Positions 1 through 11,360 of a stretch of DNA of 64,000 bases are shown here, in pieces; within the stretch, counting starts at the first letter, position 1; each line of letters starts with the position of its first letter. The notes beneath the pieces were generated by a model. The model did not search any database. It was not told the origin of the DNA and saw only the letters and a list, made by a program, of their open reading frames with translations. Position numbers and translations under genes: made by a program. The stretch is from a virus: positions 1-64,000 of IMG/VR virus record IMGVR_UViG_3300044972_000601, one strand, 5' to 3'.

Positions 1-108
1 AATACCAAAAACTCCATACTCATCTGGATGCATCAACTTTTTTCGGTGTTGATCGGCTTCGTCAGCAGTTGAGAATCCTTTACTATAAGCCGTGAATAAT
101 GTGTTCAT
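1..108 (-). CDS. Partial small hypothetical protein
   Basis: An open frame starts at an ATG at 108 and runs off the left edge of the window after 36 codons (begins MNTLFTAYSKGF, ends DEYGVFGI). It lies one base past the stop of the 110-253 gene, so it continues the same minus-strand operon. The composition (soluble, charged, DEADQHRKK) shows no membrane segment or motif I recognise. The function is unknown. Confidence 0.55.
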   Translation of the reverse strand, partial: MNTLFTAYSKGFSTADEADQHRKKLMHPDEYGVFGI

Positions 109-109
109 T

Positions 110-253
110 TTATTTCTTTCCAATCTTGGTTACTACTTCTACTTTGCTCAATTGCAGTTGATAAAGGAATCTACGGTATGTCCGCAATGCTGCAATGCTC
201 ATTGGATCTGTCTCACCTTCAAGTTCAGCAAGTTCTTTAATTCGTTCGTTCAT
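110..253 (-). CDS. Truncated MNERI-family small protein
   Basis: This 47-residue protein begins MNERIKELAELEGE, the N-terminal signature of the paralogous family that fills this operon. It lacks the FAELIVRE core and the HFGVEE end, so it looks like a family head joined to an unrelated tail (ALRTYRRFLYQLQLSK). Its ATG overlaps the preceding stop as ATGA at 250-253. A GGAG ribosome site lies inside the last codons of the upstream gene. Function unknown. Confidence 0.6.
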   Translation of the reverse strand: MNERIKELAELEGETDPMSIAALRTYRRFLYQLQLSKVEVVTKIGKK

Positions 254-453
254 TCTTCAACTCCGAAATGTTCAGCAACTTTGCTTGCAATTACCGTTGA
301 TTTAACTTTATGACCTTCATATTCAGTGTCAGTTCGATAACATACATCCATACATTCTCGCACAATCAACTGGGCGAACTTTTCCAAGTCAATGTTGTAT
401 TCTGAATAACGATGGTAGCATTGTTCAGCAAGTTGTTGAATTCGTTCGTTCAT
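250..453 (-). CDS. MNERI/FAELIVREC family small protein
   Basis: This 67-residue member of the repeated family begins MNERIQQLAEQCYHRY, has the core LEKFAQLIVRECMDVCYR in the middle and ends VAEHFGVEE. I chose the ATG at 453 rather than an upstream ATG at 504 because it matches the start of every paralogue and overlaps the preceding stop as ATGA. The core looks like an amphipathic helix with an invariant Glu-Cys pair. The family is common in phage metagenomes but I know no function. A small soluble early accessory protein is the safest reading. Confidence 0.75.
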   Translation of the reverse strand: MNERIQQLAEQCYHRYSEYNIDLEKFAQLIVRECMDVCYRTDTEYEGHKVKSTVIASKVAEHFGVEE

Positions 454-569
454 AAAAACCACTCCATGTAAATCCAGGCCACAATGCAAGCAACATTGAA
501 CCATACAGCAAACAACACCATGTAGAGCATCACCTGAGCCCGCCGTCCTGCTTGTTCACCTTCGTTCAT
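450..569 (-). CDS. Small single-span membrane protein
   Basis: This 39-residue protein starts MNEGEQAGRRAQ and then has one hydrophobic stretch of about 22 residues (MLYMVLFAVWFNVACIVAW), ending MEWFL. The basic N-terminal segment suggests an N-in orientation. It is joined to both neighbours by ATGA overlaps. The codons of MEW supply a GGAG for the next gene. No family is recognised. Membrane targeting is predicted from sequence only. Confidence 0.65.
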   Translation of the reverse strand: MNEGEQAGRRAQVMLYMVLFAVWFNVACIVAWIYMEWFL

Positions 570-784
570 TCTTCAACTCCTAATGTTGCGGGATTATGAT
601 CTAGACGGTTACCGTTATCGTCTGAATAGAAGGTGGCATCATCGTCTGTTATTGTAACACACAAATCGCTATGAAGCAAGTCATAATCGGTGAACTCACC
701 CAAGTCTGTGTACACACGAAACTGGTACTTGTCCAGGGCTGTGTATATTAAATGGCCCTCTACTCCGTCTGCTGATAGTTTCAT
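566..784 (-). CDS. Small acidic hypothetical protein
   Basis: This 72-residue protein (MKLSADGVEGHLIYTAL...) is rich in Asp (TITDDDATFYSDDNGNRLD) and ends ATLGVEE. It is not a FAELIVREC paralogue, yet its last codons are those of the family terminus. This keeps the AGGAG ribosome site for the next gene. The ATG at 784 overlaps the previous stop. An upstream in-frame ATG at 838 would add a poly-Leu segment and run deep into the upstream gene, so I rejected it. Function unknown. Confidence 0.65.
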   Translation of the reverse strand: MKLSADGVEGHLIYTALDKYQFRVYTDLGEFTDYDLLHSDLCVTITDDDATFYSDDNGNRLDHNPATLGVEE

Positions 785-975
785 TCTTGTGTCCTTTGTG
801 GGTAATAGTAATAACAATAAGGCCTGTTGGTGTTCCAATCTCCAGTCATGCCATCCAAATCCTGTAGGCTATCCACAGCGCGAGCTGTCATGCTGTCATG
901 CACAATCCATGGAGTGTCACGCCTTGCCCGCAGGTATTGCTTGAGATAGATCCGGCTTTGTTCCAGCCGATTCAT
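781..975 (-). CDS. Small basic hypothetical protein
   Basis: This 64-residue protein starts MNRLEQSRIYLKQYLRARRD and ends with an unusual Tyr run (YCYYYYPQRTQE). It overlaps both neighbours by 4 bp (ATGA). The N-terminal half is predicted helical and basic. The Tyr-rich end overlaps the start region of the next gene, so its composition may be constrained by that overlap. No family recognised. Confidence 0.6.
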   Translation of the reverse strand: MNRLEQSRIYLKQYLRARRDTPWIVHDSMTARAVDSLQDLDGMTGDWNTNRPYCYYYYPQRTQE

Positions 976-1067
976 TCTGTATCCGTTCTTTTATCTTCGT
1001 TGGAGCGATATGCCATAAAGAACACACCCACGACAAATCCCATTACTAATCCCCAAAAGAAACTCAT
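972..1067 (-). CDS. Tiny membrane protein (31 aa)
   Basis: This 31-residue protein begins MSFFWGLVMGFVVGVFFMAY and ends RSNEDKRTDTE. It has one membrane span directly at the N-terminus followed by a charged tail, with GxxxG-type glycine spacing that often supports helix packing. It is placed by ATGA overlaps with both neighbouring genes. Such proteins are typical small early phage membrane proteins, but no partner can be named. Confidence 0.65.
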   Translation of the reverse strand: MSFFWGLVMGFVVGVFFMAYRSNEDKRTDTE

Positions 1068-1255
1068 AGTTCAACTTTAATTTTATCTTTGGGAATCTGG
1101 TTATAGGGCATGTTGTGTTTGAGGCTCTCTTCCATGATATGAGCCAAGTCATCTTCAAATTTTGTATATCCGGGATTGGCTCGTAGTCGTTGCCAAAATG
1201 GACTATTGGTGTCATTGCTGAACACTTCCTTGATACTGGTTTTATATGCCTTCAT
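1064..1255 (-). CDS. Small hypothetical protein
   Basis: This 63-residue protein (MKAYKTSIKEVFSNDTNSPF...) contains a predicted helix KFEDDLAHIMEESLKHNM and ends DKIKVEL. The ending resembles the HFGVEL terminus of a family member at 2130. Its start overlaps the stop of the upstream FAELIVREC gene. It seems to be an unrelated cassette inserted between family junctions. No motif recognised. Confidence 0.6.
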   Translation of the reverse strand: MKAYKTSIKEVFSNDTNSPFWQRLRANPGYTKFEDDLAHIMEESLKHNMPYNQIPKDKIKVEL

Positions 1256-1458
1256 TCTTCAACTCCAAAACGGTCTTGAATTCTTTGTTCAATCTCATAG
1301 CATCTATCCAGCGCCCAGTCATCGGGTTCAGAAATGTTTCCTACATTATGTGCAATATCCATACATTCCCGAACAATCAACTCGGCGAACTTTTCTGTGT
1401 TAAACCCACATTCAGTTTCAGATTGTTTCATCAATTCTTTGAGCAGTTTATAGTTCAT
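1252..1458 (-). CDS. FAELIVREC family small protein
   Basis: This 68-residue member has a divergent N-terminus (MNYKLLKELMKQSE), the core TEKFAELIVRECMDIAHNVG and the end IQDRFGVEE. The middle matches the paralogue at 250-453 (RECMD), and the C-terminal segment EIEQRIQDRFG is helical. It is linked by ATGA at 1455-1458 to the upstream paralogue and at 1252-1255 to the next gene. Function unknown. Confidence 0.75.
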   Translation of the reverse strand: MNYKLLKELMKQSETECGFNTEKFAELIVRECMDIAHNVGNISEPDDWALDRCYEIEQRIQDRFGVEE

Positions 1459-1700
1459 TCTTCAACTCCGAAATGTTTTAAAATCTCTTCTGCCAATTCT
1501 CGCCTACCCCTATTGTAGTCAGATACGCCACCAACTACGACATTTTTATATTGTAATTTAACACATTCTTTGACAATCAGTTCGGCTAATCTATCAATCC
1601 GGCTAAGAAAAGCTGGGGCTGGTATGTTATAAAACCCCATGTCCTCGCCGTAGCTGACAAGCCCAGCTTCCTCAAGCAAGTCTTTAATTCGTTCGTTCAT
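1455..1700 (-). CDS. MNERI/ELIVKEC family small protein
   Basis: This 81-residue member starts MNERIKDLLEEAGLVSYGE and has core DRLAELIVKECVKLQYKN. It ends ILKHFGVEE. Its second half is nearly identical to that of the plus-strand paralogue at 11582-11818, including a 47-bp identical DNA run (1525-1571 against 11702-11748), while the N-terminal halves differ. This shows recent swapping of a family module inside the genome. ATGA overlaps on both sides. Confidence 0.75.
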   Translation of the reverse strand: MNERIKDLLEEAGLVSYGEDMGFYNIPAPAFLSRIDRLAELIVKECVKLQYKNVVVGGVSDYNRGRRELAEEILKHFGVEE

Positions 1701-1942
1701 TCTTCAACTCCGAAATGTTCTCGAATCTCATCACCCATGGTTCCGCCACCGTTTGATTTTTCACGCAGGATAAAATCCACTTTACCAGCACATTCCTTTA
1801 CAATCAACTCGGCAAACTTTTGGTCATTATCTCTCTGAAACGCATAGTGCGCTTCCGGGTAAGGTATTTTGTTTCCTTTAGCCCAGTCTGCTCTAACTTC
1901 TGCTCTAGCCTGTTCAGCAAGTTGTTTAATTCGTTTATTCAT
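1697..1942 (-). CDS. MNKRI/FAELIVKEC family small protein
   Basis: This 81-residue paralogue begins MNKRIKQLAEQARAEVRADW. It carries the core DQKFAELIVKECAGKVDFIL and ends EIREHFGVEE. The start at 1942 overlaps the upstream stop, and the SD-like GGAG is inside the upstream FGVEE codons. The insert between the N-terminal helix and the core (KGNKIPYPEAHYAFQR) is specific to this copy. Function unknown. Confidence 0.75.
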   Translation of the reverse strand: MNKRIKQLAEQARAEVRADWAKGNKIPYPEAHYAFQRDNDQKFAELIVKECAGKVDFILREKSNGGGTMGDEIREHFGVEE

Positions 1943-2133
1943 TCTTCAACTCCGAAATGCTTCAACACTTCACCGCCAATATCTTGTTCATTTGTATCTT
2001 GTGCCCAACTAGCACGATTGGCGCATTCCCGCACAATCAACTCGGCGAACTTTGCTACATCTTCAAATGGGACTGTCCCTGTTCCGTCAAATAATTTTGC
2101 TTGGTAAGCAAGTTTTACAAATCGGTCGTTCAT
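1939..2133 (-). CDS. MNDRF/FAELIVREC family small protein
   Basis: This 64-residue paralogue (MNDRFVKLAYQAKLFDG...) has core VAKFAELIVRECANRASWAQ and ends VLKHFGVEE. It is one of the shorter complete copies, so the family minimum is roughly an N-terminal helix, the core helix and the HFGVEE tail. It overlaps the neighbours at 2130-2133 and 1939-1942. Function unknown. Confidence 0.75.
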   Translation of the reverse strand: MNDRFVKLAYQAKLFDGTGTVPFEDVAKFAELIVRECANRASWAQDTNEQDIGGEVLKHFGVEE

Positions 2134-2360
2134 AGTTCAACTCCAAAATGGTGTTTAATCTTTTTAACAGTGTCCTTGTCATGTTCCTTTAATGCCCGAA
2201 CTCTTTCGTTGGCAAATGGCTCATGTGGGTTTAGTATCATATACTTTTGATCCACAAACAATTCTGCACATTCCCGAACAATCAACTCGGCAAACTTTTT
2301 TGTCTCAATTGTAAGCTCTAATTCAGCCTCTGTGGCAAGTTCTCGAATTCGTTGGTTCAT
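2130..2360 (-). CDS. MNQRI/FAELIVREC family small protein
   Basis: This 76-residue paralogue begins MNQRIRELATEAELELTIET, contains KKFAELIVRECAELFVDQ and ends IKHHFGVEL. I took the ATG at 2360 because it aligns with the other copies and overlaps the stop of the upstream small membrane gene. The much longer open frame that continues upstream is a shadow of the SWIM gene. It is the first family copy read from the operon promoter. Confidence 0.75.
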   Translation of the reverse strand: MNQRIRELATEAELELTIETKKFAELIVRECAELFVDQKYMILNPHEPFANERVRALKEHDKDTVKKIKHHFGVEL

Positions 2361-2473
2361 GTGCATACTCCAGTAGTTCGGTGTATGATAGTGTATTCGG
2401 GTATGGTGACCACACTGAGCAATACAATCCACAACAAGGTGGCTGTGATGATGCCCAAGCAGAACTGTTTCAT
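2357..2473 (-). CDS. Tiny membrane protein (38 aa)
   Basis: This 38-residue protein starts MKQFCLGIITATLLWIVLLS and continues VVTIPEYTIIHRTTGVCT. One N-terminal hydrophobic span of about 20 residues follows a short basic head. The Cys at position 5 is too early for a normal lipobox. It overlaps the SWIM gene (ATG at 2473) and the next family gene (stop at 2357). Function unknown. Confidence 0.6.
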   Translation of the reverse strand: MKQFCLGIITATLLWIVLLSVVTIPEYTIIHRTTGVCT

Positions 2474-2805
2474 GCCAATTCCAATTGCTTAACGTGTTTG
2501 CAAGCACCACGATAGGTGTAGCCTGGGCAGGTGCATGTGCCCGCTGATGTGTCCACAGTGTAGGTTTGACCTTTGCTGCCCTCAACTGACACCACGTGGC
2601 TGGCCACAACAGGTGTTTCAAATGGATTGGGCGAGACCACGTCAAACTTACGTGCTCGTCGATCAAAGCCTTTGATGGGCGATTTGAAGTAAAATGGCAC
2701 AGTAGTACCTGAGCGTATGTAAGCAATCAGTGTGTTGCCATCCAGCAGATAAGTGTGATTGGCAGTGTTACCTGGCCACGCAGTGGTTTCCAATAGGGCT
2801 TGCAT
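2470..2805 (-). CDS. SWIM zinc-finger protein
   Basis: The C-terminal third contains CTCPGYTYRGACKHVKQLEL, the CxC...CxH pattern of the SWIM zinc finger, a module that binds DNA or proteins. The start used here (ATG at 2805, MQALLETTAWPG, 111 residues) is the first in-frame ATG after the promoter start point. An earlier ATG at 2862 lies inside the promoter and cannot be transcribed from it. The N-terminal part has beta-rich sequence (YLLDGNTLIAYIRSGTTVPF), also seen in other phage SWIM proteins of about this size. It is the first gene of the minus-strand early operon. The exact role is unknown. Confidence 0.7.
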   Translation of the reverse strand: MQALLETTAWPGNTANHTYLLDGNTLIAYIRSGTTVPFYFKSPIKGFDRRARKFDVVSPNPFETPVVASHVVSVEGSKGQTYTVDTSAGTCTCPGYTYRGACKHVKQLELA

Positions 2806-2833
2806 AAAGAACTCATGTAGTTGGTATGTGATG

Positions 2834-2862
2834 ATTATAGCAGGTGTGGCCCGTGAAGTCAA
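2834..2862 (-). promoter_or_regulatory. Sigma70 promoter of left operon
   Basis: On the minus strand TTGACT (2857-2862) is followed by 17 bp and a perfect TATAAT (2834-2839) with an upstream TG (extended -10). The predicted start near 2827 lies about 22 bp before the SWIM gene. No other promoter of this quality is seen to the left, so it probably drives all the small genes down to base 1. Confidence 0.8.
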
Positions 2863-2979
2863 GGGTCAAGATTGCCAAACCCGAGAATCGGCTGCGAAAA
2901 AATTTTTGAGCATTCAGCGGCCAAAATACGGGAAAGCAATTCGAAACGCCGCCCGGTACAAGCGCGGTCGCCGTTTCTC

Positions 2980-3008
2980 TTGGTGATTCACAATTCCCAT
3001 GTTACAAT
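2980..3008 (+). promoter_or_regulatory. Probable weak sigma70 promoter
   Basis: TTGGTG, 17 bp, TACAAT. It matches the spacing of the other early promoters but has weaker hexamers. The -10 ends 5 bp before the lipoprotein ATG at 3014, so the message would have almost no leader. Confidence 0.45.
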
Positions 3009-3013
3009 ATGGT

Positions 3014-3241
3014 ATGACTAAATGGATCACAATACTCACTGCCCTATCACTGCAAGGCTGTGCCACTGCATACACAGTGACCTCCACGGCCACATGGGTT
3101 GCAACTGGTAAAAGCGTAACGGATCATGTGACTAGTAAGCTCACATATGGTGATTGCGATGCAGTTCGTATGATAACAAAGCTAACTTACTACTGTGAAA
3201 TGACGGATCCAAGTAAGACATACAACCGTACGGGACTGTGA
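3014..3241 (+). CDS. Small lipoprotein
   Basis: This 75-residue protein starts MTKWITILTALSLQGCATAY: a short signal peptide with a lipobox (L-Q-G-C) and Cys at position 16, so it should be lipidated and membrane-anchored after cleavage. The mature part TATWVATGKSVTDHVTSKLT followed by Cys residues (GDCD, YYCEM) resembles a family of short bacterial lipoproteins with a TGKSxxDH segment (recalled, not searched). An upstream ATG at 2999 lies within the promoter -10 and was rejected. A surface or superinfection role is possible but is only inference. Confidence 0.65.
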   Translation: MTKWITILTALSLQGCATAYTVTSTATWVATGKSVTDHVTSKLTYGDCDAVRMITKLTYYCEMTDPSKTYNRTGL

Positions 3242-3297
3242 ACATAGCTACGCACAGGAGACCCCGCTGTTGATGTGTGCGTATACACGAGCAATGA

Positions 3298-3411
3298 CTA
3301 GTTTATATGTTTGATCAACACTAGTATAATGCCAACACCCAGCGTGCCTGCCAGCATGCGCAGTAACCATAACAGCACAGTCAGCAGTAGTTCGGTTAGT
3401 AGTTGATTCAT
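3298..3411 (-). CDS. Tiny membrane protein (37 aa)
   Basis: This 37-residue protein begins MNQLLTELLLTVLLWLLRML and continues AGTLGVGIILVLIKHIN. It is almost entirely hydrophobic, with two short spans or one long span broken by Arg. The start lies just downstream, on the minus strand, of a copy of the GC-rich repeat. No clear Shine-Dalgarno site other than the repeat GGGG is visible. No family recognised. It is a candidate phage membrane peptide. Confidence 0.5.
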   Translation of the reverse strand: MNQLLTELLLTVLLWLLRMLAGTLGVGIILVLIKHIN

Positions 3412-3434
3412 AGTGTAGGAGACCCCGCTGTGCG

Positions 3435-3623
3435 TTATGTGTATATGTCTAGATTGGGTCTATGCACCAAATGGCAGTCTGCTAACATGGCTAGACTCAA
3501 TCGGTCTTCCCGTATGTAGAAGCGTATGCCCAGGGGCTGTGCTGAGTATGAGTAGCTACAGAATCCCAATTGATCCAGGGTGTCTGCATCCACAGTGTAT
3601 GAGTCGTAACAGTATAAGCGCAT
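3435..3623 (-). CDS. Small hypothetical protein
   Basis: This 62-residue protein (MRLYCYDSYTVDADTLDQLG...) is Tyr- and Asp-rich and reads like a folded soluble protein (YIREDRLSLAMLADCHLVH). I preferred it to the overlapping plus-strand frame, which is Cys/Ser/Pro-rich. The start at 3623 is about 25 bp downstream (minus sense) of a repeat copy. An ATG at 3638 is also possible. Function unknown. Confidence 0.45.
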   Translation of the reverse strand: MRLYCYDSYTVDADTLDQLGFCSYSYSAQPLGIRFYIREDRLSLAMLADCHLVHRPNLDIYT

Positions 3624-3720
3624 ACTGTATATAGTCAAACCAGTACGTTAGGCCCCGCTGTGAGCTCTGCGTGTACAAGCTGTGTGCAGTTAGGCCCCGC
3701 TGTTGATGTGTGCGTGTATA

Positions 3721-4154
3721 GTGGTTAGGCGGAGATTTTAGAGAAATGTAGATAGAAGATTGGGATGATGGGAGTAACCATTAAAACTATGCCTCTCTGC
3801 CCCACCCGGGACCTCATCGCTAGACACCGTACGCCACGGTCCGGAACCCCACTCTTGATTCAAAACCCCAGAACCGTTGCACTTTATCACACTATTCTGC
3901 ACTTTTCCACATGTTTCTAACCTGGCAACCGCACTCGTTGCCCCTGTACGCTGGGTGGCGGTGAGTCTAGATGCACTTTAGTACGCATTCTTTATGTGTT
4001 GTGTCACATAATATAGTCAGTGAGTCCCTATATATGCTACTCAACACATATTTGCTGTACAGTGTATATACAGTAAGGCATGGTGTCTCACTAGATTAAC
4101 CAACTCAATAGTGCTGAACCATATAAGTACTATGTACACTGGAGGAACACTAAC
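3721..4154. other. Non-coding stretch with long inverted repeat
   Basis: No convincing gene is seen. An imperfect inverted repeat pairs 3815-3837 (CTAGAC, ACC, GCCAC) with 3955-3973 (GTGGC, GGT, GTCTAG) around a loop of about 117 bases, which suggests a structured RNA or a cruciform. No consensus promoter of the local type precedes it. The 3' part (4000-4100) is AT-rich with TATATA runs. Confidence 0.4.
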
Positions 4155-4394
4155 ATGATTAACAGTCTAGCTCAAATACGTTTTCCAACTCATCAAGTCG
4201 TCATCAGTCGCAGTGATGATTACATACACATATTCAAGTATACAGACTCAGCATGTGCATATGAAGTATTCACTAGCAGTATAGCGGCAGGTGATTACTT
4301 ATTAATAGAACCGGACAGTCAGCATTATCGTGTGGTAATAGAAGGTGATGTTGCTTGGATGCCTATATATTGCAGGCCTTCACCTTTCCTATAA
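4155..4394 (+). CDS. Small hypothetical protein
   Basis: This 79-residue protein starts MINSLAQIRFPTHQVVISRS and is predicted beta-rich (YIHIFKYTDSACAYEVFTSS, YLLIEPDSQHYRVVIEGDV). It is preceded by a good ribosome site (TGGAGG, 8 bp before the ATG). No promoter of the standard early form is obvious upstream. It stands alone between the non-coding stretch and the DnaA-box region. No family recognised. Confidence 0.6.
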   Translation: MINSLAQIRFPTHQVVISRSDDYIHIFKYTDSACAYEVFTSSIAAGDYLLIEPDSQHYRVVIEGDVAWMPIYCRPSPFL

Positions 4395-4444
4395 TACATT
4401 AATTGTATTAAGGCGGTTCAAACCCGTATCAATTGTCATATAGA

Positions 4445-4616
4445 GGCGGGACCCAACCCGCCCAAACTCGTTTATCAACTCGTTTAATATTATGTGGATA
4501 AGTCTGTGGATAACTTAGTTTAGGGGCAGTGTGAATAACCTGTGCATAACTTTATCCACAGCCCCTTAATCTCTCGCCCAAAAAGTTATCCACAGCTTAT
4601 ACATCAGTTATCCACA
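4445..4616. other. Origin-like DnaA-box cluster
   Basis: Seven matches to the DnaA box TTATNCACA lie within 124 bp. Four are on the minus strand (4493-4501, 4505-4513, 4530-4538, 4541-4549) and three on the plus strand (4552-4560, 4586-4594, 4608-4616); five are exactly TTATCCACA. On the left are a GGCGGG/CCCGCC hairpin (4445-4462), two direct repeats AACTCGTTTA (4465-4474 and 4477-4486) and a short AT-rich segment. This is the architecture of a DnaA-dependent origin or a DnaA titration site. No other explanation for the spacing is seen. Confidence 0.75.
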
Positions 4617-4671
4617 GCCGAAAACGTGCGCAGCCCCGCCGTCCATCCCCACTATGTTCGAACATGAGTGT

Positions 4672-4700
4672 ATTATAACACGTTTTGGGCACAGTGTCAA
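4672..4700 (-). promoter_or_regulatory. Perfect minus-strand promoter facing DnaA boxes
   Basis: TTGACA (4695-4700), 17 bp, TATAAT (4672-4677), with TG just upstream of the -10. The predicted start is near 4665 and the transcript would run leftward through the DnaA-box cluster. No minus-strand gene lies downstream before about 3623, so the product is probably non-coding or a replication primer (inference). Confidence 0.75.
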
Positions 4701-4745
4701 ACGTGTTAGCAAAGACCCTGTTAGCAGTGTGGGTATTTTTTTGAC

Positions 4746-4774
4746 TTGACGTTTTGGGCATTGTTTGCTATAAT
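4746..4774 (+). promoter_or_regulatory. Sigma70 promoter of GIY-YIG gene
   Basis: TTGACG, 17 bp, TATAAT. The -10 ends 5 bp before the first ATG of the gene, which predicts a leaderless message. It is divergent from the minus-strand promoter at 4672-4700. Confidence 0.8.
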
Positions 4775-4779
4775 ACACT

Positions 4780-5103
4780 ATGATGAAAACAAAACGAACT
4801 GCCCGTAAAGACTGCAACTACGTTATCTACGTAGCCGAGCACAACGGCTCTGCTTACATTGGACTCACCCGTAAGGGCACTGTAAGCATCGCCAAAGCTG
4901 TCAAAGAACGGTGGCGTAAGCATATCAGCAGAGCCCGGCACGAGGACAGAGACTGGGAACTGTACAAGTACATCAAATCGGGCAACTGGGACGGATGGAC
5001 TCATACAGTACTAGACATCGTGCGTGGCCGTGCTGAAGCGTATGCATACGAGCGTGAGCTTGTAAAGCATATGGAACCCGAGCTGAATGACCAGTACCTT
5101 TGA
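4780..5103 (+). CDS. GIY-YIG domain nuclease
   Basis: This 107-residue protein has the GIY-YIG core: NYVIYVAEHNGSAYIGLT (residues 13-30, with VIY standing for GIY and YIG present), then ERWRKHISRA with the expected Arg, YERELVKHM with the catalytic-type Glu, and EPELNDQYL with the Asn. It is a single-domain protein with no DNA-binding extension. This fits a small nicking or cutting endonuclease, either a homing type or one acting in host DNA breakdown or repair. It starts at ATG 4780 or the next codon ATG 4783. There is no ribosome site, consistent with a leaderless message. It sits beside the DnaA-box cluster. Confidence 0.75.
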   Translation: MMKTKRTARKDCNYVIYVAEHNGSAYIGLTRKGTVSIAKAVKERWRKHISRARHEDRDWELYKYIKSGNWDGWTHTVLDIVRGRAEAYAYERELVKHMEPELNDQYL

Positions 5104-5110
5104 AGGGTTA

Positions 5111-5139
5111 TTGACACACTCTTCAAATGGTGCTATAAT
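5111..5139 (+). promoter_or_regulatory. Sigma70 early promoter
   Basis: TTGACA, 17 bp, TATAAT with TGC before the -10. The leader (ACTTAAACAACAAAGGAGCG) is the shared early leader. It drives 5169-5456 and the two overlapping genes after it. Confidence 0.85.
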
Positions 5140-5168
5140 ACATACTTAAACAACAAAGGAGCGAAACG

Positions 5169-5456
5169 ATGAAGTTTACACAAGCAACATGGCAAGAGGC
5201 AAACGGCACTAGCCTGCAGGGTTACATTAATGCAACTTACGCAGACTTGGTAGAGCGTTTTGGTGAGCCCGAATGTGGTGGTGACAAGACTACAGTGGAG
5301 TGGGTGCTGAAGTTTGCGGACGGCACTGTGGCCACTATCTATGATTGGAAACTTGACGAGACGCCCACTGACATGTATAATTGGCACATCGGCGGTAAAA
5401 ACAACACTGCTGTCACTCGCGTTACATCCACATTCAAGCAAGGAGCAACTGTATGA
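5169..5456 (+). CDS. Conserved phage protein with WHIGG motif
   Basis: This 95-residue protein contains LVERFGEPECGGDKTTVEWV, then FADGTVATIYDWK and YNWHIGGKNN near residue 80. I recall the W-x-I-G-G ending from many T4-like and cyanophage small proteins, but its role is not known. A strong AGGAGC ribosome site precedes ATG 5169. The stop overlaps the next start by 4 bp (ATGA at 5453), so the two are translationally coupled. Confidence 0.7.
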   Translation: MKFTQATWQEANGTSLQGYINATYADLVERFGEPECGGDKTTVEWVLKFADGTVATIYDWKLDETPTDMYNWHIGGKNNTAVTRVTSTFKQGATV

Positions 5457-5734
5457 AACAGAATTACACCATGTACTGCTACAAGAAGGACCGCCGTTGC
5501 AAGACTGGCGAGAGACTGTTCTCCACCACAGTGTGGCAGGACCGCACACTGGAGGGATTGGAGCGGGAGATGCGTGACATGTCACGTGACCTATATCCGG
5601 GCACTGACTGGCGGTTTGAGTTCGTTCCCACAATGAAGACTGTGAAGAACTTGATGAGTGGCAAAGACATTCAAATCCCACACGACACACCTCGCTCGTG
5701 CGATCCGTCAAGCGAACTCTACTGGAGCATGTGA
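5453..5734 (+). CDS. Conserved hypothetical protein
   Basis: This 93-residue protein starts MKQNYTMYCYKKDRRCKTGE and includes GLEREMRDMSRDLYPGTDWR and FVPTMKTVKNLMSGKDI. It is charged and soluble, with no recognised motif. It is second in a three-gene unit (5169-5898) with overlapping starts and stops. A long antisense frame over this region (5133-5804 minus) is a shadow. Confidence 0.65.
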   Translation: MKQNYTMYCYKKDRRCKTGERLFSTTVWQDRTLEGLEREMRDMSRDLYPGTDWRFEFVPTMKTVKNLMSGKDIQIPHDTPRSCDPSSELYWSM

Positions 5735-5898
5735 TGAAGAACGAGATTGAACGCTTGAACTTTGTCATTTGGGCAAAGACTCGTTTCCCGGGCTTTACCA
5801 CCAATCATGTACAGTATACCAAGGCCAATCGGGCATGGCGGGCTGTGGCACGTAAAGACCCTATGGTTGACAAGGTTATTAGATCCTGCTATAATTAA
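5734..5898 (+). CDS. Small basic protein with HTH-like helix
   Basis: This 54-residue protein (MKNEIERLNFVIWAKTRFPG...) starts inside the preceding stop (TGATG at 5732-5736). It is basic (TKANRAWRAVARKDPMVDKV) and may contain a helical DNA-binding segment, but no family is assigned. Its last codons carry the -35 and -10 of the next promoter, so coding and control DNA overlap. Confidence 0.6.
   Translation: MKNEIERLNFVIWAKTRFPGFTTNHVQYTKANRAWRAVARKDPMVDKVIRSCYN
5867..5895 (+). promoter_or_regulatory. Sigma70 early promoter
   Basis: TTGACA, 17 bp, TATAAT with TGC before the -10, embedded in the 3' end of the 5734-5898 gene. It drives 5930-6130. Confidence 0.85.
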
Positions 5899-5929
5899 GG
5901 CTACAGTAAACAACTAAGGAGCGAAACTT

Positions 5930-6130
5930 ATGCGTACACAGACAACCCGACTGCTAGAGATGATGGACGAAGGTCTTATCTCAGCCCAAGCCATTGCTGA
6001 GATGGCTCTGGCCTACATGAGCGAAGACGATGTGGCAGACATGATGAGGGCCAATGACATCCTGGAGGAAGAGGATGATGGGCAACCCAGCGAATCCCAG
6101 GAGTGGGAATCGTTTGACGCAGACTGCTAA
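5930..6130 (+). CDS. Small acidic helical protein
   Basis: This 66-residue protein (MRTQTTRLLEMMDEGLISAQ...) is helical and very acidic at the C-terminus (DILEEEDDGQPSESQEW). The segment DEGLISAQAIAEMALAYMSE looks like paired helices. Preceded by AGGAGCG and followed 10 bp later by the next gene. No family name can be given. Confidence 0.65.
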   Translation: MRTQTTRLLEMMDEGLISAQAIAEMALAYMSEDDVADMMRANDILEEEDDGQPSESQEWESFDADC

Positions 6131-6140
6131 GGAGCACACT

Positions 6141-6515
6141 ATGACACGCTATTACGACGAACTGGCCGTTTACGAACGCAACGGATTTGATATCATTGTG
6201 GACAAATCATATGAAGACCTGGATCCCAAAGACTGTTTTGATGACGACTGCTTCAACATCAAAGAAATGTATTCCGACATCGAGTGCGGGAACCTTGACT
6301 GGTTCATGCTCCGTGTCCGAGTTATGGTTGAGAACATCGAACTCAGCTCGGAGTTCTTGGGCGGATGCTTATACAAAGACGCCCGCGAAGTCCTTACAGA
6401 CGGCACGGCAGAAGACCTCATCGACATGGCTCTGACTGAAGCCAAGAAGGATGTCTACAGGCTGTACAAGAAGTTCCAGGACATCAGCTGGGAACTTGAC
6501 GCACAATCGGTTTGA
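6141..6515 (+). CDS. Hypothetical acidic protein
   Basis: This 124-residue protein starts at ATG 6141 after an AGGAGC site (MTRYYDELAVYERNGFDIIV). An upstream in-frame ATG at 6054 lies inside the previous gene and lacks a ribosome site. The sequence is Asp/Glu-rich in the first half (SYEDLDPKDCFDDDCF) and ends with a helix (ALTEAKKDVYRLYKKFQD). The next promoter begins in its last codons. No domain recognised. Confidence 0.65.
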   Translation: MTRYYDELAVYERNGFDIIVDKSYEDLDPKDCFDDDCFNIKEMYSDIECGNLDWFMLRVRVMVENIELSSEFLGGCLYKDAREVLTDGTAEDLIDMALTEAKKDVYRLYKKFQDISWELDAQSV

Positions 6516-6524
6516 TGCTATAAT
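6496..6524 (+). promoter_or_regulatory. Sigma70 early promoter
   Basis: TTGACG, 17 bp, TATAAT with TGC before the -10. The leader ACTTAAACACACACAGGAGC is shared with other early genes. It drives 6553-6888. Confidence 0.85.
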
Positions 6525-6552
6525 AAACACTTAAACACACACAGGAGCGAAG

Positions 6553-6888
6553 ATGCTAACCATTCAACAAGTGAATTCAGCTATCATGTTGCAGACATGG
6601 ACCAATGAGCAACTGACCAGCATGATTGATGCAGTCAAGTGGAATCGGGCTACATTGGCCAAGATCACCAAACGTAGCCTCAGCATTGGTGACAACGTGA
6701 ACTTCACATCCAGCAAGACTGGTGTGAATGTAACGGGTGTAGTGACTAAGATTGCCATCAAGTATGTCACGGTGAAGACTGTGCAGGGCTTGTGGAGAGT
6801 GCCAGCCAACATGCTGGAGAAGGTTGAAGAGGAGTGGACTCCGGACAATGCAGACTTCAACGACAGAGGTTCACGTCATCACTATTGA
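6553..6888 (+). CDS. Small protein with SH3/KOW-like segment
   Basis: This 111-residue protein starts MLTIQQVNSAIMLQTWTNEQ. A basic helical region (DAVKWNRATLAKITKRSLS) is followed by a beta segment GDNVNFTSSKTGVNVTGVV and VTVKTVQGLWRVPANML. This pattern resembles a small SH3/KOW-like barrel that could bind nucleic acid or polymerase. I recall similar proteins in aquatic T4-like phages. The assignment of a barrel is inference, and the function is unknown. Confidence 0.65.
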   Translation: MLTIQQVNSAIMLQTWTNEQLTSMIDAVKWNRATLAKITKRSLSIGDNVNFTSSKTGVNVTGVVTKIAIKYVTVKTVQGLWRVPANMLEKVEEEWTPDNADFNDRGSRHHY

Positions 6889-6917
6889 TTGACAAGGATA
6901 GGTTCATGTGCTATAAT
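6889..6917 (+). promoter_or_regulatory. Sigma70 promoter of ncRNA/tRNA-Asp unit
   Basis: TTGACA, 17 bp, TATAAT. The -10 is the loop of a perfect 10-bp inverted repeat (GTTCATGTGC at 6902-6911, GCACATGAAC at 6920-6929), which looks like an operator. No protein gene of reasonable size follows. Confidence 0.85.
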
Positions 6918-6923
6918 AAGCAC

Positions 6924-7149
6924 ATGAACAGTTAGATAAGAGTTAAAGGTTACCCACACCGTTAGGCACTGTAAGACGCGAGCACAGAGGGCACTCTACG
7001 CAATCTTACAGTGTATGAAATAGGAGCAAAAGCTCTGGAGATGCGGCGGAGCATGTGGGAAGTAATGACCGTCAAGGCCCGTGAGAGATGCGCTTACAGG
7101 TAGACATAGATTGACAATGGTTCCTTTAGTTCTTTTCTAACTGAGATTT
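6924..7149 (+). ncRNA. Structured non-coding RNA upstream of tRNA-Asp
   Basis: The transcript from the 6889 promoter has no credible gene before the tRNA. It folds strongly. A 10-bp stem (CACTGTAAGA at 6967-6976 with TCTTACAGTG at 7004-7013) continues inward with GCG/CGC and AGAG/CTCT. A small GAGC-AAAA-GCTC hairpin follows near 7023. An outer helix can form between CCCACA (about 6953-6958) and TGTGGG. A 20-codon frame (start MRRSMWEV) exists after AGGAGC but is probably incidental. It matches no RNA class I can identify. Confidence 0.5.
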
Positions 7150-7224
7150 GCCGAGGTAGTCCTCTGGGAGGGCAACGGATTGTCTATCCGACCTAGGCGG
7201 GTTCGATCCCCGTCCTCGGCGCCA
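7150..7224 (+). tRNA. tRNA-Asp (GUC)
   Basis: A cloverleaf with a perfect 7-bp acceptor stem (GCCGAGG with CCTCGGC), a D arm GTCC/GGGC, anticodon loop TTGTCTA (anticodon GTC), T stem GCGGG/CCCGT with loop TTCGATC, discriminator G and encoded CCA. The top pair of the anticodon stem is an A-A mismatch. It lies at the end of the ncRNA transcript. Confidence 0.9.
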
Positions 7225-7296
7225 TTCAAGGCATTCAGGTAGTCCCTGATGTAAGCCCAATCCATGAACTGTTGTTTTTTCACAACACCCAAAAAA

Positions 7297-7322
7297 AGAC
7301 CTGGTTGACATCAGGGTCTTTG
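7297..7322 (+). terminator. Hairpin terminator after tRNA-Asp
   Basis: AGACCTG (7297-7303) pairs with CAGGGTCT (7312-7319, one bulge) and is followed by a short T run. The right arm can instead pair with CCCTGATGT at 7244-7252, so two exclusive folds exist. Confidence 0.5.
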
Positions 7323-7331
7323 CACAAGCTG

Positions 7332-7360
7332 TTGACGTTTTGGTGGAAGTACGCTATAAT
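7332..7360 (+). promoter_or_regulatory. Sigma70 early promoter
   Basis: TTGACG, 17 bp, TATAAT. Drives 7390-7644. Its leader differs from the shared one (ACACTAAAAAGGACACACA). Confidence 0.85.
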
Positions 7361-7389
7361 ACATGCATACACACTAAAAAGGACACACA

Positions 7390-7644
7390 ATGCTTACACA
7401 ATGCATAGCAAAAGCAAAATTAGTTTTTAACAAAAAACTCAAAACTTATAAACTTGTTGTAGCGTTTAACGCACACAAAACAATCAAGCCAAACGGGGAC
7501 GTAAAATACAGCTTCCCTACGCAAGCAAAATGCAATTATGTAAGCGGAGATTTGCTTGCAGACAATTTGCAAAACGAGCTTGCAACTGTACTGCCTACAG
7601 TTTATGCAACATTACGCACAAACAGCGTAGAGTTTGTAGATTAA
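7390..7644 (+). CDS. Small hypothetical protein
   Basis: This 84-residue protein begins MLTQCIAKAKLVFNKKLKTY and is basic in the first half, beta-like (YKLVVAFNAHKTIKPNGDVK) and helical later (DNLQNELATVLPTVYATL). Codon choice is strongly A-ending (GCA, AAA, ACA, TTA), unlike genes before 7 kb and after 8.8 kb, so this segment may have a different origin. No family recognised. Confidence 0.65.
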   Translation: MLTQCIAKAKLVFNKKLKTYKLVVAFNAHKTIKPNGDVKYSFPTQAKCNYVSGDLLADNLQNELATVLPTVYATLRTNSVEFVD

Positions 7645-7690
7645 TACTAAAGTTAATGACCTTACCAGCTGTAGGGTTATTACAGCGCAT

Positions 7691-7719
7691 TTGACATTTT
7701 AGCCAAAATGCGCTATAAT
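7691..7719 (+). promoter_or_regulatory. Sigma70 early promoter with dyad
   Basis: TTGACA, 17 bp, TATAAT. Arms GCGCATTT (7685-7692) and AAATGCGC (7706-7713) form a dyad across the spacer, and CATTTT/AAAATG forms an inner one. Drives 7750-8631. Confidence 0.85.
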
Positions 7720-7749
7720 AACAACTTAGCAACAAAGAAAGTAACAAAA

Positions 7750-7986
7750 ATGGGAATTTACGCAAGCACAGTTAACGCATATGCAGAATCTGCCGCTCGT
7801 GCGCAAGTGTACACTATGCAAAACAAATTGCAAAGCTACGGACAAACAGCACAGCAACTAAATGTTAGCAGTGCAAAGTTCCGCAGGGACATCGAAACTA
7901 AAAAAGCAAAGTTTATTGCAAAAATGCAAAAAGACAAAATTGCAAAAATGCAAGCAGAGATTGCACACTTGCAAGCAACAGTTTAA
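7750..7986 (+). CDS. Small coiled-coil protein
   Basis: This 78-residue protein (MGIYASTVNAYAESAARAQV...) is almost all helix. The C-terminal half, about residues 40-78 (ETKKAKFIAKMQKDKIAKMQ then AEIAHLQATV), has heptad-like spacing typical of a coiled coil. I used ATG 7750 because the upstream frame starts within the -10. Ala/Lys/Gln-rich with A-ending codons. Probably oligomeric; function unknown. Confidence 0.65.
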   Translation: MGIYASTVNAYAESAARAQVYTMQNKLQSYGQTAQQLNVSSAKFRRDIETKKAKFIAKMQKDKIAKMQAEIAHLQATV

Positions 7987-8003
7987 TTTTTAAGGAGCAA
8001 AAC

Positions 8004-8393
8004 ATGTTAGAAAACACTTTTACATTGCACACAAACGGACGCGGCTATTGGTCGCGCAAAGCAACTGCTGTAACTGTTGAGGCGCTAGACTTGCAGTACA
8101 TTACAAACGACAAGGACTTTGGCGAGCTGTGCATACACTTTAACACAAACGATTGGGACACAAAAACAGACGGGCTTATATACACAGACAAAAAGTTTAT
8201 GTCGGAACTGCGCACATACTTGCAAACTGTGGGCTTTACGCAAGCGGAAGCCGACGACGTTAGCTACAGCGAGCAGGGGATGCAAAGCGACAATTATGTT
8301 AGCTGTGACGTAGGGGCTGTGTTTATAGCGGGCTTAGAGCGTTTAGAGCCGGAGCATGTGCAAGCTGTGTATAAGGAGTGCGAGGATGTTTAA
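8004..8393 (+). CDS. Hypothetical protein
   Basis: This 129-residue protein follows 17 bp after the coiled-coil gene with its own AAGGAGC site (MLENTFTLHTNGRGYWSRKA). It has mixed secondary structure: ALDLQYITNDKDFGELCIHF, a helix with FMSELRTYLQTVGFTQAEAD, then YVSCDVGAVFIAGLERLEPE. No catalytic motif is apparent. It overlaps the start of the next gene by 8 bp, so the three genes 7750-8631 form one operon. Confidence 0.65.
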   Translation: MLENTFTLHTNGRGYWSRKATAVTVEALDLQYITNDKDFGELCIHFNTNDWDTKTDGLIYTDKKFMSELRTYLQTVGFTQAEADDVSYSEQGMQSDNYVSCDVGAVFIAGLERLEPEHVQAVYKECEDV

Positions 8394-8631
8394 CGTAACA
8401 TGCAAGCAACTAGACGACACACTACAATGGACGGGTGCTGTTGCAATTATTGCGGGCCATGTGCTTAACGCTGTAGGGCCTAGCATGTACCCCTACAACA
8501 TTGCAGTATTTGCTGTGGGCACGGTTGCGTTTTTGGCATGGGCCGTGCGTGTGCGCAACATGCCGCAAGCTGTTGTCAACCTCGTAGCATTAGCCATAGG
8601 GCTAGTAGGGTTATACAACGCTGTTGGTTGA
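8386..8631 (+). CDS. Three-span small membrane protein
   Basis: This 81-residue protein (MFNVTCKQLDDTLQWTGAVA...) has three hydrophobic spans: about 15-32 (WTGAVAIIAGHVLNAVG), 37-57 (YNIAVFAVGTVAFLAWAV) and 62-80 (AVVNLVALAIGLVGLYNA), with positive residues RVRN between spans 2 and 3. The length and three-helix layout recall SemiSWEET-like or PnuC-like small transporters of aquatic phages, but the key motifs cannot be confirmed. ATG 8386 is chosen; the frame upstream lies in the previous gene. Confidence 0.7.
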   Translation: MFNVTCKQLDDTLQWTGAVAIIAGHVLNAVGPSMYPYNIAVFAVGTVAFLAWAVRVRNMPQAVVNLVALAIGLVGLYNAVG

Positions 8632-8656
8632 CGTTTTGGCTAAAGTGCGTTATAAT
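8628..8656 (+). promoter_or_regulatory. Sigma70 early promoter
   Basis: TTGACG, 17 bp, TATAAT; the -35 overlaps the stop region of the membrane protein gene. Drives 8684-8839. Confidence 0.85.
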
Positions 8657-8683
8657 ACACACATAGCAACAAAGGAGCACACA

Positions 8684-8839
8684 ATGAGAGACGCAATACT
8701 TGCAAAGCTAGCGGAAGTAGAAGAGATGCTGTTAGAGGCAACGCTGGACGGCGAGCAACTGGCAGAGATGGCAGTGTTTGAAGAAGTGACTGGGGCGTTG
8801 AACACGCTGACAGAAGCGGTTGACTACTACGTGGATTGA
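8684..8839 (+). CDS. Small acidic helical protein
   Basis: This 51-residue protein (MRDAILAKLAEVEEMLLEAT...) is a continuous acidic helix with regular Leu spacing (ILAKLAEVEEMLLEATLDGE), likely a helical hairpin or dimer. The start at 8684 has an AGGAGC site; upstream codons in frame lie in the promoter. Promoter hexamers of the next gene occupy its last codons. No family recognised. Confidence 0.6.
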   Translation: MRDAILAKLAEVEEMLLEATLDGEQLAEMAVFEEVTGALNTLTEAVDYYVD

Positions 8840-8848
8840 CTGTATAAT
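8820..8848 (+). promoter_or_regulatory. Sigma70 early promoter
   Basis: TTGACT, 17 bp, TATAAT. TTGACT is directly repeated inside the spacer. The leader ACTTAAACAAACATTAGGAG is of the shared type. Drives 8881-9153. Confidence 0.8.
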
Positions 8849-8880
8849 TAACACTTAAACAAACATTAGGAGCGAACCAA

Positions 8881-9153
8881 ATGGACAAATACGAAATTGT
8901 AGATATGTTTGAGCAAAACTTTATGACCCGCAGTGAAGGCGAGACCGGCGTAAAGAACTTGGAAAACGTGTGCGAGATCCTGGGCTACGGCACGGGCTTT
9001 ATGCGTAACCGTGCTATTGAGGAGTTCCTCACAGACAATCCGGGTGCTGTAGAAGCCCTGTTCCAGTTTATTACAGAGTGGGCCGTACGCAACTCCGACT
9101 GGCAAGCTGGCATGGAAGATGCTCTTGCTGAAGAGGGGTTGGTTGACGAGTAA
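8881..9153 (+). CDS. Conserved hypothetical acidic protein
   Basis: This 90-residue protein (MDKYEIVDMFEQNFMTRSEG...) is helical and acidic: KNLENVCEILGYGTGFM, then IEEFLTDNPGAVEALFQFI and MEDALAEEGLVDE. The charge (many Asp/Glu) would suit a protein that binds a basic partner such as a nucleoid or polymerase component, but this is only speculation. It has a strong shared-type leader and ribosome site. Confidence 0.65.
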   Translation: MDKYEIVDMFEQNFMTRSEGETGVKNLENVCEILGYGTGFMRNRAIEEFLTDNPGAVEALFQFITEWAVRNSDWQAGMEDALAEEGLVDE

Positions 9154-9171
9154 GCCAAAAGCTGTTATAAT
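9143..9171 (+). promoter_or_regulatory. Sigma70 early promoter
   Basis: TTGACG, 17 bp with the GCCAAAA core, TATAAT; located in the last codons of 8881-9153. Drives 9202-9705. Confidence 0.85.
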
Positions 9172-9201
9172 ACACACATCAACAACACATTGGAGCGAAC
9201 A

Positions 9202-9441
9202 ATGAAAGTATCACAACTCATCGAAGCATTGCAAAGCATGGACCCAACACTGGACGTTCACTTTAGCTACTGCTATGGCGACCACTGGCGCACAGAGGTG
9301 GCCCCTGCTGTGTCACACATTGACATGGGCATAGTGGGTTACAGCGAGTACCACCGTATGGACAAAGTCATCGAAGTTGATTATGACGACGAGGACAGCG
9401 CCGACGAGTGCAAGGGCAAACCCGTAGTTCTTATTGCTTAA
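9202..9441 (+). CDS. Conserved small phage protein
   Basis: This 79-residue protein starts MKVSQLIEALQSMDPTLDVH and contains paired His/Tyr segments (HFSYCYGDHWRTEVAPAV), then acidic DYDDEDSADEC and a C-terminal strand KPVVLIA. The opening VSQLIEALQSMDPxxxV is a recurrent pattern in small phage and bacterial proteins of unknown function, as I recall. ATG 9202 has the TTGGAGCG site; the in-frame ATG at 9190 overlaps that site. Confidence 0.65.
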   Translation: MKVSQLIEALQSMDPTLDVHFSYCYGDHWRTEVAPAVSHIDMGIVGYSEYHRMDKVIEVDYDDEDSADECKGKPVVLIA

Positions 9442-9450
9442 GGAGCAGAC

Positions 9451-9705
9451 ATGATTACAGCAGACACACTAGAGGTTCTAACAGATTTTGGACCACAGTA
9501 TCTAACCAGAGCCGCACAGGATGCAGGCTACAGAGGTCCTAACTTCACATCGTGCAAGTTCCTGGGCATCACTAATGGCGGCCAGTTCTGCTACATGGGT
9601 GTCTTCCAAGTAGAGGGCGGTACTGACAGCACAAAGGTCTTCCTTACATATGACCACACAGAGGATAAGGTCTTTGCAGACGTTCAGTTGACAGACTGGG
9701 CTTGA
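9451..9705 (+). CDS. Hypothetical protein
   Basis: This 84-residue protein (MITADTLEVLTDFGPQYLTR...) is second in the unit, 9 bp after the previous stop with an AAGGAGC site. It is predicted as a small alpha/beta domain (GPNFTSCKFLGITNGGQF, CYMGVFQVEGGTDSTKVF, LTYDHTEDKVFADVQL). No active-site motif is seen. The next promoter starts in its end. Confidence 0.6.
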   Translation: MITADTLEVLTDFGPQYLTRAAQDAGYRGPNFTSCKFLGITNGGQFCYMGVFQVEGGTDSTKVFLTYDHTEDKVFADVQLTDWA

Positions 9706-9716
9706 TACGCTATAAT
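9688..9716 (+). promoter_or_regulatory. Sigma70 early promoter
   Basis: TTGACA, 17 bp with a TGGGC core, TATAAT. Drives 9749-10413. Confidence 0.85.
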
Positions 9717-9748
9717 ATACGCTTACACAAACACACTAGGAGCACACA

Positions 9749-10225
9749 ATGGGAACACGTTCAACAATCGCATTGGAATTCGCAGACGGCACAGTAGAGC
9801 AAGTGTATTGCCACTGGGACGGCTATCTCGAGCACAACGGCAAAATCCTTGCTGAACACTATTCAGATCCGTTCAAACTGCGTGACTTGATTGATCAAGG
9901 CAGCATCAGTTCGCTGGGCAAGGTTGTTGGCAATACACATCCTTTCAGCCCATTCGAAGGCGAGACACAGAAAGCACAGTACGAAGCGGCAATGGCAGCG
10001 GGTGCAACTACATTCTACGCACGAGATCGTGGCGAGGAGTTGCAAGTAGAGAAGTTCAACGACTTCCAGGACTACTTGGCTCATCACCAGTATGAGGAAT
10101 ACGAGTACATCCTACGCCGGGACGGCAACTGGTACGTTCAATGCCACGATGACGCCTTTGTTACATTAAAGTCTGCAATCGCAGACGAACAAGATCGAAT
10201 TGCACAAGAGGAGACAGCAGAATGA
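9749..10225 (+). CDS. MGTRSTI-family phage protein
   Basis: This 158-residue protein begins MGTRSTIALEFADGTVEQVY and continues CHWDGYLEHNGKILAEHYSD. This N-terminal block is a widely conserved phage family (MGTRS...Y-C-H-W-D-G-Y) that I recall from many tailed phages; its function is unknown. The middle has LRDLIDQGSISSLGK, and the end contains a second conserved-looking segment EYEYILRRDGNWYVQCHDD. It overlaps the next gene by 4 bp. Confidence 0.75.
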   Translation: MGTRSTIALEFADGTVEQVYCHWDGYLEHNGKILAEHYSDPFKLRDLIDQGSISSLGKVVGNTHPFSPFEGETQKAQYEAAMAAGATTFYARDRGEELQVEKFNDFQDYLAHHQYEEYEYILRRDGNWYVQCHDDAFVTLKSAIADEQDRIAQEETAE

Positions 10226-10413
10226 GCAAGATGGCCGAACTAGCATACGATATCGAGCAACTATACATCGAGGGCCTGCATCCTACAAAGATTGCCAAAG
10301 AGCTCGACTGTCCGTTGACAGTGGTCTACGATTGGTTGGAATCATGTAGCTTGGAAGCAGATGTTGCGGAAAAGCCACAGGATGAACCTTACAGCCCTTA
10401 CTTGGGCGCTTGA
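10222..10413 (+). CDS. Small helix-turn-helix protein
   Basis: This 63-residue protein has a resolvase/Trp-repressor-like helix-turn-helix at about residues 10-40: IEQLYIEGLHPTKIAKELDC then PLTVVYDWLESC. Such an isolated HTH could act as a small transcription regulator of the early promoters (inference). It is coupled to 9749-10225 by ATGA. The acidic tail ADVAEKPQDEPYSPYLGA overlaps the next -35. Confidence 0.65.
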   Translation: MSKMAELAYDIEQLYIEGLHPTKIAKELDCPLTVVYDWLESCSLEADVAEKPQDEPYSPYLGA

Positions 10414-10438
10414 CACTCTGGGCTTTTGGTTGTATAAT
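10410..10438 (+). promoter_or_regulatory. Sigma70 early promoter
   Basis: TTGACA, 17 bp with a TGGGC core, TATAAT; overlaps the stop of the HTH gene. Drives the unit 10464-11010. Confidence 0.85.
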
Positions 10439-10463
10439 TACTACATACAGACAGGAGCACACA

Positions 10464-10604
10464 GTGAAAATCATAATCAAAGTACCAAAGAAGCACAGAG
10501 AACACATCATCCTGTTCTGTACAGGCACACCTTTCCGGCAGAAGGTTGTGCAGAGCAAGATCCAATACCGTCGTCAACCCAAACACAAAGGACGCGAGCA
10601 ATGA
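10464..10604 (+). CDS. Small basic protein, GTG start
   Basis: This 46-residue protein uses GTG at 10464, placed 7 bp after an AGGAG site. It reads MKIIIKVPKKHREHIILFCT and GTPFRQKVVQSKIQYRRQPK. It is highly basic and could bind nucleic acid. No upstream ATG fits because the in-frame one lies in the promoter. Its stop overlaps the next start as ATGA. Function unknown. Confidence 0.55.
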   Translation: MKIIIKVPKKHREHIILFCTGTPFRQKVVQSKIQYRRQPKHKGREQ

Positions 10605-10816
10605 ACGAACGAATTGATGAATTGTGGCAAGAGGCAGTAGACGCCACGTGGATTGATAATTCTAAGTCTGCTCACGAAAAGTTCGCCGAGTTGATTGTGC
10701 GGGAATGTAAAGAGAACTTTGGTAAAGTTTGGTATGAACAAGGTTTAGATATTCGTGGTGCAGAATTTGGTAAGTTTATGACACGGTTTGAAGAACATTT
10801 CGGAGTTGAAAAATGA
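10601..10816 (+). CDS. MNERI/FAELIVREC family small protein
   Basis: This 71-residue plus-strand member begins MNERIDELWQEAVDATWIDN, with core HEKFAELIVRECKENFGKVW and end FEEHFGVEK. It shows that the family is not confined to the left operon. The junction with the next copy keeps the FGV-E codons with GGAG, as in the minus-strand array. ATGA overlaps at both ends. Confidence 0.75.
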   Translation: MNERIDELWQEAVDATWIDNSKSAHEKFAELIVRECKENFGKVWYEQGLDIRGAEFGKFMTRFEEHFGVEK

Positions 10817-11010
10817 ACGAACGAATTAACCTACTGTTGGAACAGTCCGGCCTCCAGCCTTATTACGATGCACAAGAGGGCCAAATCGAAAAGTTCGCCC
10901 AGTTGATTGTGCAGGAATGTATGGAAGAAGTTATGACTTACCAGCATCACCGCAATCCTACTATACCGTTCATAGTAGAAGATATTAAAAAACATTTCGG
11001 AGTTGGTTGA
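10813..11010 (+). CDS. MNERI/FAQLIVQEC family small protein
   Basis: This 65-residue member starts MNERINLLLEQSGLQPYYDA, with core IEKFAQLIVQECMEEVMTYQ and end IKKHFGVG. Here the usual junction is broken: the terminal codons run straight into a TTGACA promoter instead of another start. Only a Gly replaces the final EE, so the promoter cassette seems to have landed exactly at the junction. Confidence 0.75.
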   Translation: MNERINLLLEQSGLQPYYDAQEGQIEKFAQLIVQECMEEVMTYQHHRNPTIPFIVEDIKKHFGVG

Positions 11011-11035: not shown

Positions 11036-11065
11036 ACACACATGGACAACGCAAAAGGAAGCAAG

Positions 11066-11336: not shown

Positions 11337-11360
11337 ACACGCATACACTAGGAGCACAAG

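Follow-up and report, generated by a model that had tools for sequence, protein, structure and literature searches.

An oriC-like DnaA-box array behind a conserved promoter-core unit in jumbo T4-superfamily phages, a candidate DnaA-dependent origin or control module

Seven perfect TTATNCACA boxes are located within 124 bp (4493-4616) of the window, which is the whole 64,000-nucleotide stretch of DNA analysed here (bases 1-64000 of a 108,205-bp IMG/VR record that is itself a fragment). They lie downstream of a promoter and a G-rich core that recur in relatives at a fixed position. This arrangement suggests that in a jumbo T4-superfamily phage the site may act as a bacterial-oriC-like, transcription-assisted, DnaA-dependent origin or control module, and we give this reading, in which the origin function is deduced from sequence comparison, an even chance of being correct. 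The array itself is very likely to be bound by host DnaA, as judged from its boxes. T4-type phages are the textbook example of phages that replicate without the host initiator. The finding that rows of boxes have been kept, lost and regained at one place suggests that these phages borrow the replication switch of the host.

By a motif scan, the boxes were mapped to 4493..4501 and 4505..4513 (TTATCCACA), 4530..4538 (TTATTCACA) and 4541..4549 (TTATGCACA) on the minus strand, followed by 4552..4560, 4586..4594 and 4608..4616 (all TTATCCACA) on the plus strand. The order of four minus boxes followed by three plus boxes agrees with the original prediction. The TTATNCACA sequence is found 12 times across the 64-kb window, as compared with 4.55 expected. 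Outside the array, the full record holds only seven matches, all of which are isolated, so that the array is the sole cluster in the record. A Poisson estimate gives approximately 0.01 boxes for 124 bp, and the seven found are therefore far beyond chance. Similar clusters scattered through the record were not seen, and conservation in relatives was.

The contig is confirmed to be that of a T4-superfamily (far-T4/jumbo) phage, as had been proposed from the sequence. It contains Pfam matches to the gp23 major capsid protein, the gp20 portal protein and the sheath C-terminal domain, and it encodes UvsX, a DnaB-like gp41, a primase and a UvsW-type helicase. It is a piece of a jumbo genome, because relatives syntenic with it are as long as 364 and 383 kb. 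The nearest gp41 proteins from isolates are those of PA5oct, a jumbo phage of Pseudomonas, and of phages related to it (~50-54% identity) and of Agrobacterium phage Atu_ph07 (52%). A small paralogous gene family (MNERI...KFAELIVKEC...HFGVEE) flanks the array site on both sides in many copies, with members at 250-504, 1252-2133, 10361-11010 and 11582-11818 of the window. The starts of two ORFs, 22024-22980 and 64087-65799 (the latter beyond the window), appear to resemble NodU/CmcH-type carbamoyltransferases.

The unit is driven leftward by a sigma70 promoter with an extended -10 element (TTGACA-17-TATAAT, 4672..4700, minus strand). A perfect promoter firing through the cluster had been predicted, and the 12/12 match is confirmed, but this promoter is one of many in the region. 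It is by itself unremarkable, because eight further 12/12 sigma70 promoters are present within the first 12 kb of the window. Most of the nine perfect promoters in window 1-12000 stand ahead of small accessory genes. The core GTTCGAACATAGTGGGGATGGACG (4640..4663, minus strand), which is located at the start of the transcript, is present in a single copy in the record and is G-rich on the RNA-like strand. When the upstream regions of relatives are compared by eye, the unit is laid out on the minus strand as a TTGACA/TATAAT promoter, GTTCGAAC near the start, GGGGRTGGACG, a variable region of 150-300 bp that contains the boxes in the window, and the terminator of a plus-strand ORF. Two scans with a core pattern of our own yielded at least 66 non-redundant viral units with the promoter, and the promoter and the GTTCGAAC-N-GGGGRTGGACG core occur with or without boxes in contigs of up to 383 kb. 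The base preceding TGGACG in the core is either A or G. A small peptide starting at RTGGACG was considered and rejected, because its reading frame is not conserved in the alignment of 64 cores inspected by eye. The GC skew of the RNA-like strand is +0.44/+0.48 in the core and near zero downstream, and this strong G-richness is predicted to favour an RNA-DNA hybrid.

Every box is located downstream of the promoter and inside its transcribed region, and the promoter and core are kept even in units without boxes. Both facts are consistent with a transcription switch or roadblock, by which DnaA or the cell-cycle state would control the conserved noncoding RNA, with the RNA as the effector. This explanation is rather improbable, because the RNA has no conserved fold (0.0 for 64 aligned cores by RNAalifold). 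The RNA of the window folds well (z -4.15), but largely through pairing of the inverted boxes, and in several relatives the boxes are all in one orientation. A search of Rfam with window 3000-6000 gave no match.

Boxes were counted in 61 non-redundant members whose downstream sequence extends for 250 bp or more. Among the matches listed, 26 of these 61 carry two to nine boxes, 35 carry none and not one carries exactly one, where units scored as box-less may contain weaker boxes. The boxes are thus dispensable to the clade, because 35 of the 61 relatives lack perfect ones. The box-bearing share of ~40-43% does not represent the frequency in the clade, because it is derived from the matches listed and from our own core pattern.

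There are strong signs that the box arrays are under selection. The density of perfect boxes is 5.1/kb in the unit versus 0.07/kb in the flanks, an enrichment of ~74-fold, and the reversed control motif is found 0 times in the unit. When the 8-mers of the units are ranked without supervision, the top word is GTGGATAA, which is the box. Perfect boxes outnumber one-mismatch boxes in box-bearing units (122 versus 39), whereas this relation is reversed in the flanks (12 versus 291). The distances between neighbouring boxes cluster at 11, 12, 22, 23 and 34 bp, with a periodicity of R=0.70 at ~11.5 bp that is matched by none of 2000 random placements, related members being not fully independent. Promoter-distal boxes mostly face one way (65:10) and proximal boxes mostly face the opposite way (30:17). 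When the box state is mapped onto the neighbour-protein tree, at least five gains or losses are forced and nine are most parsimonious. This result indicates that one site repeatedly gained or lost arrays that differ in detail.

Up to nine strong boxes at one place could also serve as a sink similar to datA, which would titrate or inactivate host DnaA and thereby stop initiation of the host chromosome, with no role in phage initiation. This is the main rival explanation, and the optional presence of the arrays fits an anti-host function, as does the rise in array copies along with phage DNA. We nevertheless regard it as unlikely, because a sink need not be confined to the 320 bp that follow a single conserved promoter-core unit and has no need for helically phased opposing halves, and because the few additional copies present early in infection would capture few DnaA molecules.

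Two other elements were observed near the boxes. A AGTATTACC-like motif, AGTA(T/C)TA usually followed by CC, is located past the distal box in 9/26 box-bearing units (loci L128, L157, L161, L177, L179, L190, L197 and L356 among them) and in 0/35 box-less units. A palindromic GTTAGTTGGCGCCAACTAAC-like element, which is possibly the site of another protein, is found downstream of the core in 13/35 box-less and 5/26 box-bearing units (L023, L118, L128 and others).

Of 12 large contigs, 10 have one copy of the unit and the other two have two. The unit is located ~15-21 kb from gp41 in syntenic relatives, and its relation to gp41 is kept. In G003, which has two copies far apart, one copy is ~7 kb from gp41. 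G003, G004, L315, L316 and L342 have two core copies, which are oppositely oriented or separated by a few hundred to several thousand bases. In the 383-kb relative (G019), the unit contains 6 of the 19 boxes and is the sole cluster, the remainder being scattered. Conservation of position is therefore borne out for the slot, but only the minority of sampled relatives noted above, among the matches listed, have boxes in it. The 364-kb relative (G001) looks near-complete and permuted, because the interval between the unit and gp41 runs across the contig ends. The idea that contig ends near the core are physical genome ends was dropped, because the edges of the retrieved stretches are not contig ends.

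The site might also be a structural or DNA-entry signal like the injection-stop region of T5, which likewise has boxes and repeats. The T5-type stop signal has been described with DnaA boxes (PMC13250531). This explanation is the least probable of all and very remote, because the T5 region is located where a fixed terminal repeat ends, whereas the unit appears to be internal and the 364-kb relative looks permuted. In addition, the stretch from the T5-type phage Spc35 showed only three widely spaced boxes.

The left edge of the unit is formed by a terminator-like GGCGGG/CCCGCC hairpin (4445..4462, with arms at 4445-4450 and 4457-4462), and relatives have a GGGGCC..GCCC-type hairpin at the matching position. 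Next to it are two AACTCGTTTA direct repeats (4465-4474 and 4477-4486). The hairpin and repeats are present beside the cluster as predicted, but the repeats most probably represent the remnant of a terminator rather than origin iterons, because relatives have a clear plus-strand intrinsic terminator (AACCCGTTTTGTCAACCGGGTTTT; AACCCG..CGGGTT) at the same place. The ORF to the left of the unit (4155..4394, plus strand, 79 aa) has no PHROG or Pfam match. To the right, a divergent promoter identified by promoter scan (TTGACG-17-TATAAT, 4746..4774, plus strand) precedes the gene for a 107-aa GIY-YIG-like protein (4780..5103, plus strand), which gives a weak Pfam match (E=0.0012) under the curated cut-off. 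This neighbour protein was used as a query for relatives, and 26 were found.

If the boxes work, their binder is most likely host DnaA, because the DnaA DNA-binding domain (domain IV, PF08299) was detected in 0 of 25 phage records, many of them fragments, whereas the control worked in 10 of 14 genomes. A phage-encoded DnaA was accordingly discarded for these 25 records. Many DNA-binding proteins of jumbo phages are unknown, and the sites of one of them might share the DnaA-box sequence by coincidence. However, this is highly improbable, because the spacing is oriC-like, the phage records have no DnaA domain, and the consensus matches the classical box including its flanks. The extended consensus in box-bearing units is GTTATCCACAG, which we take to be identical to the strong E. 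coli boxes R1 and R4. A scan of genome contigs for the core gave mostly chance matches, with one promoter-bearing match in a Methylophilaceae MAG (L387). A relative of window ORF 14542-14733 is likewise encoded in this MAG, which is no more than a weak hint that Methylophilaceae are the host.

The preferred reading, that of a DnaA-dependent origin, is favoured by the uniqueness of the array, the conserved promoter and position, and the signs of selection. It is weakened by the box-less relatives among the matches listed, by the absence of the unit from the closest isolates, by the use of other origins in T4, and by two results on the DNA around the site. A change in GC skew at the cluster, as the original prediction anticipated, is not seen, because the local minimum tracks gene orientation and no switch attributable to replication is apparent there at synonymous sites. 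The AT content beyond the array is 60% versus 54% on average for the contig, but at fixed distance the profile is nearly the same as in box-less units, and a consistent AT-rich unwinding region is not evident. No sign was observed of an extrachromosomal state, for which the cluster had also been proposed as an origin. Capture of the array from a plasmid or a known phage origin was rejected, because only short box matches were found.

In a DnaA-dependent origin, host RNA polymerase would initiate at the conserved minus-strand promoter and make a short noncoding RNA, and the G-rich first 30-40 nt of this transcript could form an RNA-DNA hybrid, possibly as an R-loop. The transcript would then run into the helically phased, high-affinity boxes, at which host DnaA would assemble. 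DnaA binding and transcription may together open the DNA and help the first round of phage DNA synthesis to begin, after which the phage gp41/gp61/UvsX machinery would take over. It is conceivable, although we hold this with less than even confidence, that in a large clade of uncultivated jumbo T4-superfamily phages the first replication round begins through host DnaA, at an oriC-like array preceded by a clade-specific primer RNA, and that this dependence has been switched on and off in evolution by gain and loss of boxes at one site. If so, recurrent oriC-like arrays in a conserved slot would tie the start of phage replication, or the shutdown of the host, to the host initiation switch. The relatives with and without arrays provide a natural series for testing dependence on the host initiator, and the results point to a conserved phage noncoding unit without an Rfam match.

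T4 itself replicates from other origins. The unit resembles the T4 origins ori(uvsY) and ori(34) in having a promoter and a transcript that is potentially an R-loop primer, together with T4-type replication genes, but the TTATNCACA matches in T4 are scattered and number only five, and T4 lacks the core. Priming of T4 replication from R-loops has been reviewed (PMC5333043). The core is absent from the nine isolates checked, including T4, PA5oct and Atu_ph07, and box arrays are not found among the matches listed for isolates, including Salicola phage SCTP-2. PA5oct (NC_071039, 91223-91801) has three TTATGCACA sequences exactly 285 bp apart, which are probably a tandem repeat. For jumbo phages and T4-like phages, a report of DnaA boxes was not found in the open-access literature searched. 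Among lytic phages, the T5 family likewise has a noncoding control region with DnaA boxes, its first-step-transfer/injection-stop DNA, but this region is located in terminal repeats and lacks the core, and the boxes of Spc35 are few and wide apart. The Ori-Finder prediction for PseuGes_254 includes DnaA boxes (PMC11512268). Compact clusters, each of two to five perfect boxes, lie in stretches with little annotation in Klebsiella phage Kp7 (L529), Limnohabitans phage DC31 (L530), Lactococcus phages of the 949 group (L532, L527 and L528) and a microvirus (L533); many of their spacings are similarly 11-12 or 21-22 bp, but they have no core unit. E. coli datA is a DnaA-box cluster able to titrate DnaA, and it differs from the phage array in not being a promoter-core unit. 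In E. coli oriC, the box halves face each other and the mioC promoter is comparable to the array promoter. The array is similar to oriC in its perfect TTATCCACA boxes, two opposing groups, spacing of ~11/22 bp and promoter firing through the array. It differs from oriC in that it is viral, shows no dnaA or gidA neighbours and no clear AT-rich unwinding region, and is preceded by the phage-specific GTTCGAAC/GGGGRTGGACG core. DnaA-box clusters in phages are thus already known, because the cases of T5, PseuGes_254 and the unrelated phages exist, and what is new here is a T4-superfamily unit with a core, a fixed position and repeated turnover of its boxes.
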